Notes under the pieces: generated by a model | Database searches by the model: none | Seen by the model: only the letters and a program-made list of their open reading frames with translations | Told to the model about the DNA's origin: nothing | Part shown: positions 9,318-30,326 of the stretch, one piece after another | How positions within the stretch are numbered: the first letter of the stretch is position 1 | Layout of the letters: the number at the start of each line of letters is the position of its first letter | From: Hyphomicrobiales bacterium | Lineage (GTDB): Bacteria > Pseudomonadota > Alphaproteobacteria > Rhizobiales > Aestuariivirgaceae | DNA length: 41,770 bases | Assembly (NCBI GenBank): GCA_027024225.1 | Contig: JALVSR010000049.1 | Coordinates: forward strand, 1-41,770 | Direction: 5' to 3' | Program-made: the position numbers and the translations under genes

Positions 9318-9890
9318 ATGAGCACGACAACCGCACAGGACGTCACCCGCCGTGATTTCCTTTATATCGCCACGGGGACCGTGGGCGCCGTCGGCACGGC
9401 GCTGGCGCTGTGGCCCTTCATCGACCAGATGAACCCGGACGCCTCGGTGCTGGCGCTGGCCTCCACCGAGTTCGACCTGGCGCCGTTGCAGCCGGGCCAG
9501 GGCGTGACCATCAAGTGGCGCGGCAAGCCGGTGTTCATCCGCCACCGCACCGAGGAAGAGATCAAGAAGGCGAAGGAAACGCCGCTGGCGGAGCTGAAGG
9601 ACCCCATCGCGCGCAATGCCAACCTGCCGCCCGATGCGCCGGCCACGGACGAGAACCGCGTAACGGATGGCACCGGCAAGGTGAATCCGAAGTACCTGGT
9701 GCAAATCGGCATCTGCACGCATCTTGGCTGCGTGCCGCTGGGCGAGGCCGGTGATTATCATGGCTGGTTCTGCCCGTGCCACGGTTCGCACTATGACGAG
9801 GCCGGGCGCATCCGCAAGGGGCCGGCCCCGCGCAACCTGGACATTCCGCCGTACAAGTACATCTCCGACACGAAGATCGTGATCGGCTAA
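9318..9890 (+). CDS. petA: Ubiquinol-cytochrome c reductase, Rieske iron-sulfur subunit
   Basis: The Rieske protein carries the 2Fe-2S centre that takes the first electron from ubiquinol in the bc1 complex. The 190-residue product starts with a twin-arginine signal-anchor ([12 protein letters not shown]) and a membrane helix. The cluster ligands are visible as CTHLGC (Cys133, His135, Cys138) and CPCHGSH (Cys152, Cys154, His155). It is the first gene of a petABC operon, with a GAGAGGG ribosome binding site and 28 bases to petB. A 7-bp hairpin (9155-9161 with 9170-9176) lies in the upstream gap and no other gene is seen there. Confidence 0.96.
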
Positions 9891-9918
9891 CGGCTGCTTC
9901 CTGAGGGGAATAGGGGAC

Positions 9919-11142
9919 ATGAGCGGACACGCGACTTACGAATTCAAGAACCCGGTCGTGCGCTGGATCGAAGAGCGCCTGCCCATCTTTTCCGTCATCC
10001 GTGGGCAGGCCATCGACTTTCCAACGCCGCGCAACCTGAACTACTGGTGGACTTTCGGCGGCATCGCGGCCACCATGCTGGTGGTGCAGATCCTCACCGG
10101 CATCGTGCTGGTGATGCATTACACGCCGCATGTCAGCCTGGCCTTCGATTCCGTAGAGCACATCATGCGCGACGTGAACTACGGCTGGCTGCTGCGCTGG
10201 CTGCATGCCAACGGCGCCTCCTTCTTCTTCATCGCCGTCTACATCCACATGTTCCGCGGCCTGTATTACGGCTCCTACAAGAGCCCGCGCGAGGTGCTGT
10301 GGATGATCGGCGTGATCATCTTCATCGCCATGATGGCCACCGCCTTCATGGGCTACGTGCTGCCCTGGGGCCAGATGAGCTACTGGGGCGCGGTGGTGAT
10401 CACCAACCTGTTCTCGGCCTTCCCCGTGGTGGGTGAAACCATCGTGCAGTGGCTCTGGGGCGGCTTCTCGGTGGATAACCCCACCTTACAGCGCTTCTTC
10501 TCGCTGCACTACCTGCTGCCGTTCGTGCTGGCCGCGCTGGTGTTTCTGCACATCTGGGCGCTGCACGTGGTGGGCAACAACAACCCCGACGGCATCGACG
10601 TGAAGTCGGAAGAGGACACCTTGCCCTTCCACCCCTATTACACCATGAAGGACCTCTACGCGATCCTCATCTTCTTCCTGGTGTATCTGGGCTTCGTGTT
10701 CTATTCGCCCTGGTACCTGGGCCACTCCATCAACTTCGCCCCGGCCAACCCGCTGTCCACGCCGGCGCACATTGTCCCTGAGTGGTACTTCCTGCCGCAA
10801 TACGCCATGCTGCGCGCCATTCCGGACAAGCTGGGCGGCGTGCTGGTGATGTTCGGCTCGCTCATCATCCTGCTGTTCCTGCCGTGGCTGGACACCTCCA
10901 AGGTGCGCTCCAACCGCTATCGGCCGCTGGGCAAGATCTTCTTCTGGTTGTTCGTCATTGCCTGCCTGACGCTTGGCATCGCGGGCTCGCAGCCGGCCGA
11001 GGGTGCGTGGCTGACCGTGGCGCGCATCGCCACCGCGTTCTACTTCGCCTACTTCCTGGTGATCCTGCCGCTGCTGGGCAAGATAGAGCGGCCGAAGCCC
11101 ATGCCGGCCACCATCACCGAGGCGGTGCTGAGCAAGCACTGA
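9919..11142 (+). CDS. petB: Ubiquinol-cytochrome c reductase, cytochrome b
   Basis: Cytochrome b is the membrane core of the bc1 complex, holding haems bL and bH and both quinone sites. The 407-residue product has the expected helices, including ISFP-free segments such as [19 protein letters not shown], haem-ligand helices around [13 protein letters not shown] and [13 protein letters not shown], and the VPEWYFLP motif that forms part of the quinol oxidation site. The C-terminal three helices are fused to the N-terminal part as in alphaproteobacterial and mitochondrial forms, not split as in cytochrome b6f. It is the middle gene of petABC. Confidence 0.97.
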
Positions 11143-11181
11143 AGCGGGCAACGCATCGAACGAGATACGCAGGGGACTGTC

Positions 11182-12018
11182 ATGATGAAAAAGATCCTGA
11201 AGATGCTGGCCACGGCGGCGCTCGGCTTCGGCCTGATGACGGGGCCGGCCCTGGCCAGCGGCGGCGAGCAGAAGAACGCGCCGGACTACGATTTCAGCTT
11301 CGAGGGACCCTTTGGCACTTTCGACCGCGCGCAACTGCAACGCGGCTGGGAGGTGTTCCGGCAGGTCTGCTCCAGCTGCCACAGCCTGAAATACCTGCGC
11401 TTCCGCAACCTGGCGGAGCCGGGCGGGCCGGAGTTCACCGTGGAGCAGGCCAAAGCTTTCGCCGCCCAGTACGAAGTGCAGGATGGGCCCAACGAGGAAG
11501 GCGAGATGTTCATGCGCCCGGCGCGCCTGTCTGATGCCTTCCCATCGCCCTATCCGAACGAGGAAGCCGCCAAGGCCGCCAACAACGGCGCCCTGCCGCC
11601 GGACCTCTCGCTCATCGTGAAGGCGCGCGAGGGCTGGTACTATCCGTGGTATATCTCGCCGTTCATCAAGCTGGTGAAGGGCAATGGCGGCGCCGAATAC
11701 GTGCGCGCGCTCATCTCCGGCTACGAGGAAGCGCCGCACGGCGAAGAGAAGGAGGGGCTGAACTACAACCCCTACTTCCCCGGCCACTGGATCGCCATGC
11801 CGCCGCCGCTGGCCGGCGAGGACGTGGAATACCTCGATGGCACGCCGAACACCATCGAGCAGGAAGCCACCGATGTGGCCGCCTTCCTCGCCTGGGTCTC
11901 CATGCCCAAGATGGAAGAGCGCAAGAAGATCGGCTTCATGACCCTGCTCTACCTGTTGGTGTTTGCGCTGCTCATGTTCATGGTCAAGCACGCCATCTGG
12001 CGCAACGTGAAGCACTGA
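11182..12018 (+). CDS. petC: Ubiquinol-cytochrome c reductase, cytochrome c1
   Basis: Cytochrome c1 passes electrons from the Rieske centre to a soluble or membrane-bound carrier. The 278-residue product has a signal peptide ending near ALA-S, a covalent haem motif CSSCH (Cys63, Cys66, His67), conserved segments such as RPARLSDAFPSPYPNE and NNGALPPDLSLIVKAR, and a C-terminal membrane anchor (LLYLLVFALLMFMV). It follows petB by 39 bases and is closed by a strong terminator, so petABC is one transcription unit. Confidence 0.96.
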   Translation: MMKKILKMLATAALGFGLMTGPALASGGEQKNAPDYDFSFEGPFGTFDRAQLQRGWEVFRQVCSSCHSLKYLRFRNLAEPGGPEFTVEQAKAFAAQYEVQDGPNEEGEMFMRPARLSDAFPSPYPNEEAAKAANNGALPPDLSLIVKAREGWYYPWYISPFIKLVKGNGGAEYVRALISGYEEAPHGEEKEGLNYNPYFPGHWIAMPPPLAGEDVEYLDGTPNTIEQEATDVAAFLAWVSMPKMEERKKIGFMTLLYLLVFALLMFMVKHAIWRNVKH

Positions 12019-24577: not shown

Positions 24578-25954
<1,377 letters not shown>

Positions 25955-26045: not shown

Positions 26046-26059
26046 TTGACCGGGGTCAA
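26046..26059 (+). promoter_or_regulatory. FNR/NNR/DNR-type box upstream of nirS
   Basis: The sequence TTGAC-N4-GTCAA is a perfect inverted repeat with the spacing of CRP/FNR-family sites that control denitrification genes (consensus TTGAT/C-N4-A/GTCAA). It stands 88 bases before the nirS ATG, right for an activator site about 40 bases upstream of a transcription start. Induction by low oxygen and/or nitric oxide is inferred. Confidence 0.75.
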
Positions 26060-26146
26060 TCCACTTCGCGGAATTCTTGTCTACATTGTGAGCGGTGAAG
26101 AAGGGGGAACGCGGATCGCTCAGAGAAAGAGAGGAAGAGGGGTGCC

Positions 26147-27775
26147 ATGAAAGGACGCGCACAAGTATCAATGCTGGCTCTCGCGCTTGGCGCGGTGATG
26201 CTGGCCGGTTCCGCCGGAACCGCCTTCTCGGAGGAAATCAAGCTTTCCGAGAAGGAGTTCGAACGGGCCAAGCAGCTCTATTTCGACCGCTGCGCCGGCT
26301 GCCACGGCGTGCTGCGCAAGGGCGCCACGGGCAAGAACCTGGAGCCGAAGAACACCCGCAAGCTCGGCACCAAGAAGCTCGTCCGCATCATCACGGAGGG
26401 CACCGACGGCGGCATGAACCCGTTCAGCGATATCTTCAGCAAGGAAGATATCCTGCTGCTGGCGAAATACATCCAGCTGCCGCCGCCCAAGCCGCCCGAG
26501 ATGTCGCTGGCCATGATGAAGAAGGCCACCAAGGTTTACGTGAAGCCGGAGGACTATCCCGACAAGCCGTTGCACGGACGCAACTGGAAGAACTTCTTCC
26601 TGGTGATCGAGCGCGACGTGGGCAAGGTGGCCGTGGTGGACGGCGACAAGCATGAAATCGTCGCCCACCTGAACACGGGCTACGCCGTGCATGTGCTGAA
26701 ATCGGCCGAGCACCACCACGTGCACAGCGCCAAGCATCCGGGTCGCTTCTGGTACACCATGGGCCGCGACGGCAAGCTGACCAAGATCGACCTGTGGCAG
26801 ACGCCCGACAAGATGGTGGTGGCCGAAACCAAGATCGCCTATGACGCCCGTGACGTGGCCGTCTCCGGCGATGGCAAGTATGTGGTGGGTGGTGGTTATT
26901 GGCCGCCGCACTTCGTCATCGTCGATGCCGTAACCATGGAACCGCTGCGCGTGGTGTCCACCCGCGGCTATGACATCAACGGCGAATACGTGGAAGAATC
27001 TCGCGTCGCCGCCGTTTACACCACGCCCTTGCAGCCCTCGTTCCTGATCTCCGCGAAGGAGCTGGGGCAGATGTGGCAGGTGGACTACACGGATCTCAAG
27101 AACCTCAAGATGGTGCAGATGCAAACCTCCAAGTTCCTGCACGACGGGTTCTTCGACCCCACCGGCCGCTACTTCCAGATCGCGGCGAACGCCTCGAACC
27201 AGATGGTGGTTGTGGACACCAAGGACTGGAAGCTCGAGGCCATCATCGACGTGGGCAAGAAGCCCCACCCCGGCCCGGGTGCGAACTGGGTTGACCCGAA
27301 ATGCGGCCCCGTGGGTGGCACGGTTTACCTTGGCGAGGGCAAGATCACGACCTGGGGCAACGATCCGGAGAAGCACCCCGACCAGGCCTGGAAGGTGTGC
27401 TACAACGTGACCCTGGACGGCCCCGGCGTGTTCATCCGCACGCACCCGAACAGCCCGTATGTGCTCGCCGACCAGACCAAGTCGGCGGACGAGGAGGTGC
27501 GTCAGACCATCTACGCGCTGGAGAAGAAGACGCGCAAGCTCATCGGGCCCATCGTGGTCACCGACAAGCCGGGCTACGCGGCGGTGCACATCGAGTTCAA
27601 CGCCGATGGCTCGGAGTTCTGGGTCTCGGTGTGGAACCGCGCCGATCCGAAGAAGCCCAACGGCGAGATCGTGGTCTACGACTCCAAGACGCTCAAGGAG
27701 AAGAAGCGCATCAAGGGCTTCTACACGCCCACGGGCAAGTTCAACGTGTCCAACCGCGTCAACCACGTGACCTGA
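26147..27775 (+). CDS. nirS: Cytochrome cd1 nitrite reductase
   Basis: NirS reduces nitrite to nitric oxide in the periplasm. The 542-residue product has a signal peptide (to about residue 28), a cytochrome c domain with CAGCH (Cys49, Cys52, His53) followed by the NirS-specific GVLRKGATGKNLEPKNT and the haem c ligand Met90 in GGMNPF. The eight-bladed d1 domain has the haem d1 ligand His182 (NTGYAVH) and both distal active-site histidines, His332 (KFLHDGFFD) and His374 (KKPHPGPGAN). These support NirS over the accessory proteins NirN and NirF. A His-rich HHHVHS stretch follows His182. No nirC/D/E/F/J genes for haem d1 synthesis are in the window. A terminator-like hairpin separates it from the cupredoxin gene. 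Confidence 0.92.
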   Translation: MKGRAQVSMLALALGAVMLAGSAGTAFSEEIKLSEKEFERAKQLYFDRCAGCHGVLRKGATGKNLEPKNTRKLGTKKLVRIITEGTDGGMNPFSDIFSKEDILLLAKYIQLPPPKPPEMSLAMMKKATKVYVKPEDYPDKPLHGRNWKNFFLVIERDVGKVAVVDGDKHEIVAHLNTGYAVHVLKSAEHHHVHSAKHPGRFWYTMGRDGKLTKIDLWQTPDKMVVAETKIAYDARDVAVSGDGKYVVGGGYWPPHFVIVDAVTMEPLRVVSTRGYDINGEYVEESRVAAVYTTPLQPSFLISAKELGQMWQVDYTDLKNLKMVQMQTSKFLHDGFFDPTGRYFQIAANASNQMVVVDTKDWKLEAIIDVGKKPHPGPGANWVDPKCGPVGGTVYLGEGKITTWGNDPEKHPDQAWKVCYNVTLDGPGVFIRTHPNSPYVLADQTKSADEEVRQTIYALEKKTRKLIGPIVVTDKPGYAAVHIEFNADGSEFWVSVWNRADPKKPNGEIVVYDSKTLKEKKRIKGFYTPTGKFNVSNRVNHVT

Positions 27776-27807
27776 TGGCCGTTGAGCTGGCATGACAAGA
27801 AATGGCG

Positions 27808-27841
27808 GGGTGGCGGCATGGCGGTGCCGCCACCCTTTTGC
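27808..27841 (+). terminator. Terminator between nirS and the cupredoxin gene
   Basis: A perfect 11-bp stem (27808-27818 with 27825-27835), a 6-base loop and four T residues lie about 30 bases after the nirS stop. Partial read-through would set a nirS-high, cupredoxin-low ratio; otherwise the cupredoxin gene needs its own promoter, for which I see no clear sequence in the 60 bases left. Confidence 0.7.
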
Positions 27842-27902
27842 TATGTTCATGCACGGGGAACGGCAAGGCGTCAGCCACGGGGCAAAGCAAGGGAGGAAAC
27901 CG

Positions 27903-28382
27903 ATGAAACGTTTCGTCACCGCAGGCGTTGCGCTGGCCTTCGCCACCCTGGCGGCCGGCCAGGCGCTGGCTGAGGGAAAAACGCCCGAGCCGCCCGAGAT
28001 GACGCCGGAAAAACAGAAAATCTGCGAAGAGGCGGAAAAGCGCTACCAGAAGATTTACGGCCATCCTTCCGACAGCCTGAAGAAAAAGGGCATCCTGGTG
28101 GTGAAGATGTACAAGTACACCTTCTGCCCGCCGCAGGTGCGCATCAAGCCCGGCACGACCGTGCGCTGGGTGAACGTGGACAAGCGCACCTCGCACTCGG
28201 TGTGGTTCAAGGAGGCGGGCAAGGAGGAATCGGAACGCATCTTCCCCGACCCGGAGGAAAAGGTGGAAATGAAGTTCGACCTGCCGCCGGGCGAATACCC
28301 TTACCTCTGCGGCCCGCACTGGCAGTCCGAAGGCATGGTGGGCAAGGTCATCGTCGATCCGAAGGCGGACTGCTGCGGATGA
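27903..28382 (+). CDS. Secreted type I copper protein (cupredoxin)
   Basis: The 159-residue protein has a signal peptide (to ALA-E, about residue 23) and a plastocyanin/pseudoazurin-like domain. Probable copper ligands are His98 (RTSHSVWF), Cys136 and His139 (YLCGPHW) and Met145 (SEGMVGKV), giving a C-x2-H-x5-M loop. A helical-looking N-terminal extension of about 40 residues with Cys41 precedes the domain, Cys75 lies in its first strand and two cysteines end the protein, so one or two disulfides are possible; these are not usual in pseudoazurin. Its place right after nirS suggests it donates electrons from the bc1 complex to NirS, which is inference. The ribosome binding site is GGGAGG. It converges with gatA. 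Confidence 0.88.
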   Translation: MKRFVTAGVALAFATLAAGQALAEGKTPEPPEMTPEKQKICEEAEKRYQKIYGHPSDSLKKKGILVVKMYKYTFCPPQVRIKPGTTVRWVNVDKRTSHSVWFKEAGKEESERIFPDPEEKVEMKFDLPPGEYPYLCGPHWQSEGMVGKVIVDPKADCCG

Positions 28383-28490: not shown

Positions 28491-29957
28491 TCAGGCCAGG
28501 GCCTGTTCCAGCTTGTCGGCAAAGGCCACCACCTTGTCGTCGAAGAAGCGCGGGCCGATGACCTGCAGCCCCAGCGGCATGCCGCGCGCATCCTTCGCCA
28601 CCGGCAGCGACAGGCCCGGCAGGCCGGCCATGTTCACCGGCACGGTGAACACGTCGCCCAGGTACATCTGCAGCGGATCGTCAAGGCTCTTGCCCAGCTC
28701 GTAGGCCCCTGCCGGCGCGGCGGGCATGAGCATCAGGTCGGCCTGCTTGAAGGCCTGCGCGAACTCGTCCGCCACGATGGCGCGCACCTGCTGCGCCTTC
28801 TTGTAGTAGGCGTCGTAATAACCCGCGCTCAGCGCGTGCGTGCCCATCATGATGCGCCGCTTCGCCTCCAGCCCGAAGCCCTCCGCACGCGTCTTCTCGT
28901 ACATGTCGATGAGGTCTTCGTATTCTTCCGCGCGGTGGCCGTAGCGCACGCCGTCATAACGCGCGAGGTTCGAGGAGGCCTCCGACAGCGCGATGATGTA
29001 ATAGGCCGGCAGCGCGTATTTCAGGTGCGGCATGGAGACTTCCACGATCTCGCACCCCGTCTCCTTGACCAGCTCCTCCGCCCGTTGCCACACCAGCTCG
29101 GCCTCTTCCGTGGCCTCCGCCTGGCGGATCTCCTTCGGAATGGCGATGCGCTCTATCTCCATGGGCGTTTCCAGCGCGTCTTCCAGGTTCAGGCAGCCGC
29201 GCGGGCAGGAGGTGGTGTCCTTCTCGTCCTCGCCCATGATCACGTCCAGCAGGATGGCCACGTCCCGCACCGTGTGGCCCAGCGCGCCGGCCTGGTCCAG
29301 CGAGGATGCATAGGCCATCATCCCCCAGCGTGAGCACAGGCCATAGGTGGGCTTCATGCCCACCACGCCGCAGAAGCTGGCCGGCTGGCGGATGGAGCCG
29401 CCGGTGTCCGAGCCAATGGCGCCCGGCGCCATGCCCGCCGCCACCGCCGCCGCCGAGCCGCCGGAAGAGCCGCCCGGGGTCAGGTTCTCAAGCCCCAGCT
29501 TCAGCCCCACCGGATTGATGGTGGGGCCAAAGTGGCTGGTCTCCGTGGTGGAGCCCATGGCGAACTCATCGAGGTTCGTCTTGCCCAGCAGCAGCGCGCC
29601 GGCCTCCCACAGCTTGGAGGTGACGGTGGATTCGTAGGTGGGCACGAAGTTGTACAGGATCTTCGAGCCCGCCGTGCTCAGCACCCCCCTGGTGCAGAAG
29701 TTGTCCTTCACGGCAATGGGCACGCCCTCCAGCGGCCGCGCGTCATCGCCCTTGAGCCTTTCCACGGCGGCCTTCGCCCCGTCCATGGCGCGCTCGATGG
29801 TTTCGGTGATGAAGGCGTTGATATTGCGCCCCGCCTCCATGTTCCGCGCGAAGGTCTCCACAACCTCCACCGGGTTCAGTTCGCCCTTGCGCAGGCCGTC
29901 GCGCACTTTCGTCAGCGAGGAAAGCTCTTCGGGCAGTTCGCCAATGTTCTCCGCCAT
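28491..29957 (-). CDS. gatA: Asp-tRNA(Asn)/Glu-tRNA(Gln) amidotransferase subunit A
   Basis: GatA is the amidase subunit that supplies ammonia for converting Glu-tRNA(Gln) or Asp-tRNA(Asn) to the correct amides. The 488-residue product shows the amidase catalytic triad segments: the Lys in GVPIAVKDNFCTRG, the first Ser in TPGGSSGGSAAAVAAGM and the nucleophilic Ser in GSDTGGSIRQPASFCG. The ATG at 29957 has an AGGAGG ribosome binding site and gives the usual N-terminus (LTKVRDGLRKGELNPVEVV). In many genomes gatC lies directly upstream; here the upstream 700 bases contain no GatC-like frame, so gatC must be elsewhere. gatB is also absent from the window. Confidence 0.95.
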   Translation of the reverse strand: MAENIGELPEELSSLTKVRDGLRKGELNPVEVVETFARNMEAGRNINAFITETIERAMDGAKAAVERLKGDDARPLEGVPIAVKDNFCTRGVLSTAGSKILYNFVPTYESTVTSKLWEAGALLLGKTNLDEFAMGSTTETSHFGPTINPVGLKLGLENLTPGGSSGGSAAAVAAGMAPGAIGSDTGGSIRQPASFCGVVGMKPTYGLCSRWGMMAYASSLDQAGALGHTVRDVAILLDVIMGEDEKDTTSCPRGCLNLEDALETPMEIERIAIPKEIRQAEATEEAELVWQRAEELVKETGCEIVEVSMPHLKYALPAYYIIALSEASSNLARYDGVRYGHRAEEYEDLIDMYEKTRAEGFGLEAKRRIMMGTHALSAGYYDAYYKKAQQVRAIVADEFAQAFKQADLMLMPAAPAGAYELGKSLDDPLQMYLGDVFTVPVNMAGLPGLSLPVAKDARGMPLGLQVIGPRFFDDKVVAFADKLEQALA

Positions 29958-30326
29958 GACCACCTCCTGTGAGTATCTGGGGTGCAACTTGCCCCGCTGG
30001 CAGGGTTTGTCAATACCCGCCACGCGCGGCCGAAAGCGGCATGCGGCGCGCCCGCCCGATTCCGGCCCCTGTGGTTGCCTGCCCGGGCATGCGCCACCAC
30101 CGAACGGCAGACTTCCGGCCGGAGAGGAAAGTCCTGGCGCGTGAAGCGAAAAAGCCTTCGAGATCATCCGCCAAGCCCGGCAAGAAGGGTCTTGCCGTCA
30201 ATGACATTTCGCGTCGGCGCAACACGTACCGGCGTGATTGCGCCCACTCTCTGGAACGTGACGGCGAAGTCGAAGCGAAGATCTTTACAGTTTCGGAATT
30301 TCGATATAAGGAGAACATACCGCCGC

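Follow-up and report, generated by a model that had tools for sequence, protein, structure and literature searches.

A divergent cytochrome cd1 nitrite reductase gene and its cupredoxin partner in an apparently reduced locus of a Hyphomicrobiales bacterium

The window, i.e. the whole stretch of 41,770 nucleotides analysed here (contig JALVSR010000049.1 of a Hyphomicrobiales bacterium), carries the cytochrome cd1 nitrite reductase gene nirS, a cupredoxin gene downstream of it (cup, encoding Cup) and a palindromic box upstream of both (Table 1). A sequence-only reading of this DNA had recognised a perfect FNR-type box, a nirS complete with all haem ligands and both distal histidines, a secreted cupredoxin after it, and the position of the unit between an aminotransferase gene and gatA. 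All of these elements were recovered: the haem ligands by alignment with Pseudomonas aeruginosa NirS, the cupredoxin by its type-1 ligands and a Pfam Copper-bind match, with the signal peptide judged by eye, and the flanks from the open reading frames of the window (aminotransferase at 24752–25954; a gatA-type amidase on the minus strand). The further statement that genes for haem d1 synthesis are missing beside nirS also holds: inspection of the open reading frames of the window (by eye; nine window proteins by Pfam) revealed no nir gene besides nirS, and when the genome was searched for domains of the cytochrome d1, NapC/NirT and uroporphyrinogen methyltransferase families, nirS was the only hit within the window. 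Both junctions, on the aminotransferase side and on the gatA side, recur in the genus mate G008, where they lie on two contigs.

Table 1. Coordinates of the features discussed, in positions of the window.
Feature	Position	Strand	Basis or remark
Cytochrome bc1 complex (Rieske, cytochrome b, cytochrome c1)	9318..12018	+	Pfam
FNR/Dnr/Nnr-type palindromic box TTGACCGGGGTCAA	26046..26059	.	87 bp 5' of the nirS ATG
nirS, cytochrome cd1 nitrite reductase, 542 aa	26147..27775	+	Pfam Cytochrom_D1, PDB match, AlphaFold2 model; signal peptide by eye
c-haem motif CAGCH (C49, C52, H53) in NirS	26291..26305	+	alignment with P. aeruginosa NirS
His182, proximal haem d1 ligand of NirS	26690..26692	+	corresponds to P. 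aeruginosa His182
9-residue insertion EHHHVHSAK, about residues 188–196 of NirS, directly past the d1 proximal His	26708..26734	+	lineage-specific; printed alignment
His332, NirS distal pocket; Asp in NirN	27140..27142	+	corresponds to P. aeruginosa His327
His374, NirS distal pocket	27266..27268	+	corresponds to P. aeruginosa His369
GC-rich hairpin, then short T run, between nirS and cup	27807..27836	+	z -3.9
cup, plastocyanin/amicyanin-like type-1 cupredoxin, 159 aa, secreted	27903..28382	+	signal peptide by eye

As a side observation, the gatA gene beside cup (28494–29978) is 88% identical to that of G008, but against the eight remaining genus mates in which gatA was matched, identity drops to 54–57%. 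For the aminotransferase and cytochrome b, the corresponding values are 80–94% wherever a full match was obtained. The gatA of the window looks like a replaced (xenologous) copy.

The NirS protein consists of an N-terminal c-type haem domain and a C-terminal d1 propeller, and both Pfam matches exceed their cut-offs (Cytochrome_CBB3, 39.8 bits; Cytochrom_D1, 366.6 bits). Among PDB sequences it matches P. aeruginosa NirS with an E-value of 5e-127. Its AlphaFold2 model aligns to 1bl9 over 497 residues with a Z-score of 58.8 and an rmsd of 3.0, compared with Z-scores of about 47 for NirN and 38.7 for NirF. The structure alignments were hand-picked and comprised 58 NirS (among them 43 other members of the 86 in the lineage described below and 14 classical NirS) and 43 Cup sequences. 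A cytochrome d1 domain is common to NirS, NirN and NirF, so that the window protein might in principle be an accessory of d1 biosynthesis (NirN or NirF) or a paralogue of the cd1 enzyme that does not reduce nitrite. We give this explanation hardly any credence. The protein keeps both distal histidines, whereas the first of them is replaced by Asp in 9 of 9 NirN; NirN forms a separate branch in the NirS tree (SH-aLRT 99); the tree, which had been suggested earlier as a check, and the structure both group the protein with NirS; and the genome has separate NirN and NirF genes. An identity as NirN or NirF is ruled out by residues, tree and fold. By Pfam, PDB sequences, the 71-row tree and the AlphaFold2 model, the window protein belongs with NirS.

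Within NirS, the protein falls into a divergent lineage, with membership defined as at least 60% identity in the best segment. Its members are 63–96% identical, and 41–48% identical to classical NirS. In the alignment of 86 lineage and 14 classical NirS, the residues C49, C52, H53, Met90 (corresponding to Met88 of P. aeruginosa), His182, His332 and His374 are invariant. The insertion after the proximal d1 histidine, as read off the alignment, is present in 83 of the 86 lineage members and in 0 of the 14 classical NirS; the three members without it (L025–L027) group with the classical branch in the NirS tree. This tree of 71 rows was computed by a quick method from 47 of the 86 lineage NirS, 14 classical NirS, 9 NirN and 1 NirF, and was rooted on the very long NirF branch. 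The lineage is paraphyletic to classical NirS in it (2 changes), and monophyly is therefore not claimed. Classical and lineage NirS also occur together in one genome or contig (L063; G018, G036).

A scan of GTDB genomes yielded 225 loci, and the best 80 of these, with NirS 66–96% identical, served for comparison; 79 were analysed, since no NirS reading frame was extracted from L105, which was left out of the synteny, box and hairpin counts. Among the best 80, the hosts are mostly Hyphomicrobiales and Gammaproteobacteria, e.g. Sedimenticola, Thiodiazotropha and tubeworm symbionts, and among named organisms Thermopetrobacter sp. TC1 is the nearest. Relatives from the 150 genomes described below carry the lower end of the NirS identity range down to 63%. 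The NirS of the window is 95% identical to that of TC1, versus 82% for cytochrome b and 68% for NirF, and a recent transfer of nirS within the genus was considered as the cause. It was rejected, because identities to TC1 at four-fold sites are alike for nirS (0.70), cytochrome b (0.67) and the aminotransferase (0.68), so that strong purifying selection accounts for the high NirS identity.

The suggestion that d1 synthesis is encoded elsewhere was confirmed. On contig C77, behind a box of its own, lies the order nirC, nirF, two genes for fused sirohaem decarboxylases (nirDL and nirGH) and nirJ; nirN is found on contig C70 and cysG on contig C10. NirJ (594.9 bits, cut-off 515.45), CysG (618.5 bits, cut-off 400) and the AhbA/AhbB-type decarboxylases exceed their cut-offs, while NirF, NirC and NirN were named by domain content and gene order. 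The genome-wide check proposed earlier for nirE, nirJ, nirF and nirD/L/G/H thus returned nirJ, nirF, nirDL and nirGH, but no dedicated NirE above the family cut-off; sirohaem could be supplied by CysG. The genome also has nap, norCB, nosZ and cbb3 genes with boxes upstream. Together, the d1 genes and nap, norCB and nosZ point to the window nirS as the gene for the cytochrome cd1 nitrite reductase of a full denitrifier. Soluble c-type carriers in the genome are NirC, dihaem c553-like cytochromes and other soluble c-type cytochromes. The two NapC/NirT-family proteins of the genome are short, one being encoded in nap (C14) and one at the contig end on C41, and no match to the EB_dh domain was found in this genome. 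In addition, contig C74 encodes a 406-residue beta-propeller with a partial Cytochrom_D1 match of 48.2 bits (L008, 2713–4709), located beside an NnrU-like gene (by eye).

The 2.22 Mb genome has 15 matches to the box pattern TTGAY-N4-RTCAA and none to its reversed version. Six of the 15 sites are located upstream of respiratory sets, namely napDA, nirS, nirC, norCB, nosZ and ccoN (the last at a distance of about 300 bp). NapD and NosZ were named by family, and norCB and ccoN by eye, with Pfam giving only COX1 and cytochrome c. Among the best 80 of 225 loci, 77 have at least 200 bp of sequence ahead of nirS, and 71 of these show a perfect box no more than 300 bp before the gene; the background is 3.4% of 1540 random 300-bp stretches from the same loci, coding DNA included. 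The hairpin between nirS and cup has counterparts as well. At most 100 nt after the nirS stop, a hairpin is present in 70 of 78 loci (among the best 80 of 225), versus 23 of 390 random stretches and 10 of 390 stretches inside nirS. Its sequence differs between loci, and TC1's own copy (L043) falls short of the hairpin criterion. Perhaps the hairpin is a partial terminator that raises nirS expression above that of the downstream genes, or it protects the 3' end of the mRNA. With this strong hairpin between them, cotranscription of nirS and cup is not assured.

The usual gene order in the lineage is nirS, a NapC/NirT-family gene, cup, and then nirC, nirF, nirDL, nirGH and nirJ; nirE follows downstream in 17 of 79 loci (one alphaproteobacterial query; among the best 80 of 225). 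Again among the best 80, 54 loci have at least 4 kb of downstream sequence. In 49 of these 54, cup lies no further than 6 kb beyond nirS; a NapC/NirT-domain gene is present in 50, and both genes in 46. Since a single NirT, cut to its N-terminal 230 residues, served as the NapC/NirT query, the figure of 50 counts the NapC/NirT domain and not a fusion. Six of these genes were read; their products have 613–958 residues with four CXXCH and further haem motifs. In two loci, a NapC/NirT tetrahaem domain fused to EB_dh was identified by Pfam between nirS and cup, with one matched EB_dh stretch in L049 (6374–8215) and two in L095 (9660–12536). No description of such a fused cytochrome, nor of the order nirS-NirT-cupredoxin, was found in the open-licence literature. 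This conserved order is common to Hyphomicrobiales and gammaproteobacterial genera; the genera that share it outside Hyphomicrobiales are known as sulfur oxidisers and symbionts. Departures from it are of three kinds. The window, L042, L043 (TC1), L045 and L047 have cup directly after nirS with no NirT between; four gammaproteobacterial loci (L078, L091, L112, L120) have nirS and NirT with Cup not detected; and in L053 neither NirT nor Cup adjoins nirS. In TC1, norCB, nirS, cup and nirCFDLGHJ are all found on one contig. The locus of the window is thus no isolated invention but seems to be a pared-down form of the nirS-NirT-cup-(d1 genes) cluster.

Cup has the type-1 copper ligands H98, C136, H139 and M145, which are conserved without exception in the 43 lineage members aligned. 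It scores 44.1 bits with Pfam Copper-bind (cut-off 21.2) and 23.9 bits with the curated pseudoazurin model, below the cut-off of 109.85. Its predicted structure (pLDDT 87.9) has plastocyanin as top match (E-value 1.4e-8). Most alphaproteobacterial Cup proteins carry a helical extension at the N-terminus, which contains the cysteine C41, and a further cysteine at C75; both cysteines are absent from gammaproteobacterial Cup. In the alphaproteobacterial proteins, C41 and C75 perhaps form a disulfide. The extension and the extra cysteines, together with the presence in the genome of NosZ, which needs copper, would fit a protein serving copper supply or NO/copper stress, e.g. copper delivery to NosZ, instead of electron transfer to NirS. 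We regard such a role as very unlikely, given the invariant His/Cys/His/Met ligands and the plastocyanin/amicyanin-like fold. Moreover, cup is linked to nirS and NirT and, in this genome, not to nosZ, which lies on contig C80.

The distribution of Cup was compared with NirS type in 150 genomes, including that of the window. Of the 42 with a match, 18 have lineage NirS, 22 have classical NirS only and 2 have weak matches. A close Cup is encoded in 15 of the 18 lineage-NirS genomes, and additionally in G022, where cup is cut by a contig end, versus 0 of the 22 classical-only genomes (Fisher p 2e-8; 2e-9 if G022 is counted). Three genomes with weak cupredoxin hits of 28–38% identity only, i.e. 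G145 with classical NirS and G073 and G101 with weak cd1 matches, were scored as lacking Cup. G006 (84% complete) has a nirS fragment at a contig end and no close Cup. G007, a member of the same genus with lineage NirS (96% complete), has no cup in the 490 bp after nirS and none genome-wide, and seems to be truly without Cup.

A NirF tree of 40 rows was used to set this association against the history of the d1 genes. The genus forms one clade (100/98) that includes G001, a genome with classical NirS and no Cup. The best tree nests G001 among the lineage-NirS members of the genus, and a clade without G001 is not rejected by the AU test (p 0.099). NirS type switches 9 times on the NirF tree, and for the independent pairs located on well-supported branches, Cup changes with it every time (6 of 6; p 0.031). 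G007, L078 and L115 were first set to unknown; with G007 and L078 rescored as lacking Cup and L115 omitted, the result was still 6 of 6. The other Cup labels were assigned by hand; L235 was too short and left out, and L091, L112 and L120 are not in the tree. Hence, Cup goes with the reductase and not with the d1 genes, although the switches are few. The cupredoxin is a conserved genomic partner of the lineage nirS.

We consider it fairly probable that nirS specifies a functional cd1 nitrite reductase in the periplasm and cup its type-1 copper carrier, specific to the lineage, that both are switched by an FNR/Dnr-type regulator, and that the locus is the remnant of a larger cluster. At low oxygen or in the presence of NO, the regulator would turn on the locus, and haem d1 would be made from sirohaem by the enzymes encoded on the other contigs. 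Quinol would be oxidised by the bc1 complex encoded in the window, from which electrons would pass to Cup (possibly also to c-type cytochromes), on to haem c of NirS and then to haem d1. There, nitrite would be reduced to NO, which NorCB and NosZ would clear. Cup, after reduction by bc1, most probably serves as an electron donor to NirS. In the relatives, Cup or NirS may receive electrons straight from the NirT-type protein. The nirS-cup pair would then be left over from a nirS-NirT-cup-(nirE)-nirCFDLGHJ cluster that lost its NirT-type quinol dehydrogenase and whose d1 genes became dispersed.

The sequence-only reading had proposed a minimal nitrite-reduction module with copper instead of cytochrome c as donor. 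The copper partner stands, as Cup is a conserved neighbour of nirS, but a replacement of cytochrome c is not supported, because NirC, c553-like and other c-type cytochromes remain. Copper may thus be an additional donor. Taken further, Cup would be one of several interchangeable carriers, a redundant back-up, with NirC, c553-like or other c-type cytochromes as main donors. This would accord with the several soluble cytochromes of the genome, with the lineage NirS of G007 and of the four gammaproteobacterial loci in which Cup was not detected, and with Paracoccus, where either cytochrome c550 or pseudoazurin suffices as donor (PMC6872814). Such a role is nevertheless rather unlikely, since Cup tracks NirS type and still adjoins nirS in the window though NirT is gone and the d1 genes are elsewhere. 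Returning to Cup as a dedicated copper donor, we suggest, more hesitantly than for the locus as a whole, that it may have been swapped together with NirS and not inherited with the d1 genes. In the Thermopetrobacter group, the supply may have been cut from NirT/EB_dh plus cupredoxin to cupredoxin alone, so that nitrite reduction would depend on bc1 and copper. If this is true, nitrite reduction by a haem enzyme is tied to copper supply. The copper route could be examined directly in Thermopetrobacter sp. TC1, a named relative in which no NirT gene separates nirS from cup.

The window NirS shares domain order, all haem ligands, the distal histidines and the fold with NirS of P. aeruginosa and Paracoccus pantotrophus. 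It differs from them by an identity of only 42–44%, the 9-residue insertion and the cupredoxin gene as direct neighbour. In Paracoccus, the periplasmic copper protein pseudoazurin is described as an established in vivo donor to cd1 nitrite reductase (PMC6872814). The likeness lies in a periplasmic copper protein beside a cd1 enzyme, with the donor role of Cup being putative; unlike pseudoazurin, Cup is plastocyanin/amicyanin-like and linked to nirS across two classes. For NirS clade 1b of Stutzerimonas, a NapC/NirT-type supply of its own, NirTB, is reported directly downstream (PMC13086519). In the relatives of the window, by contrast, the NirT gene is long (EB_dh-fused where examined) and followed by the cupredoxin gene, and in the window NirT is absent, presumably lost, and the cupredoxin kept. 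NirS lineages thus seem to bring along electron suppliers of their own, as noted for NirTB in Stutzerimonas (PMC13086519). By taxonomy alone, the lineage looks like clade 1k of Pold et al. 2024, which is made up of marine proteobacterial sulfur oxidisers; the word cupredoxin is absent from the main text of that paper (PMC10999283). In Chloroflexi, C1-C2-NirS fusions are reported, and a few of them carry a cupredoxin at the N-terminus (PMC8756737). There, a copper domain is also tied to NirS, but it is fused, whereas a separate gene is found here in Proteobacteria. An orange member of the Beggiatoaceae is described as having nirS and nirE with no other identifiable nir genes (PMC6449678). A copper donor to cd1 is already known; the window adds a cd1 nitrite reductase with a lineage-specific copper partner, apparently in reduced form.
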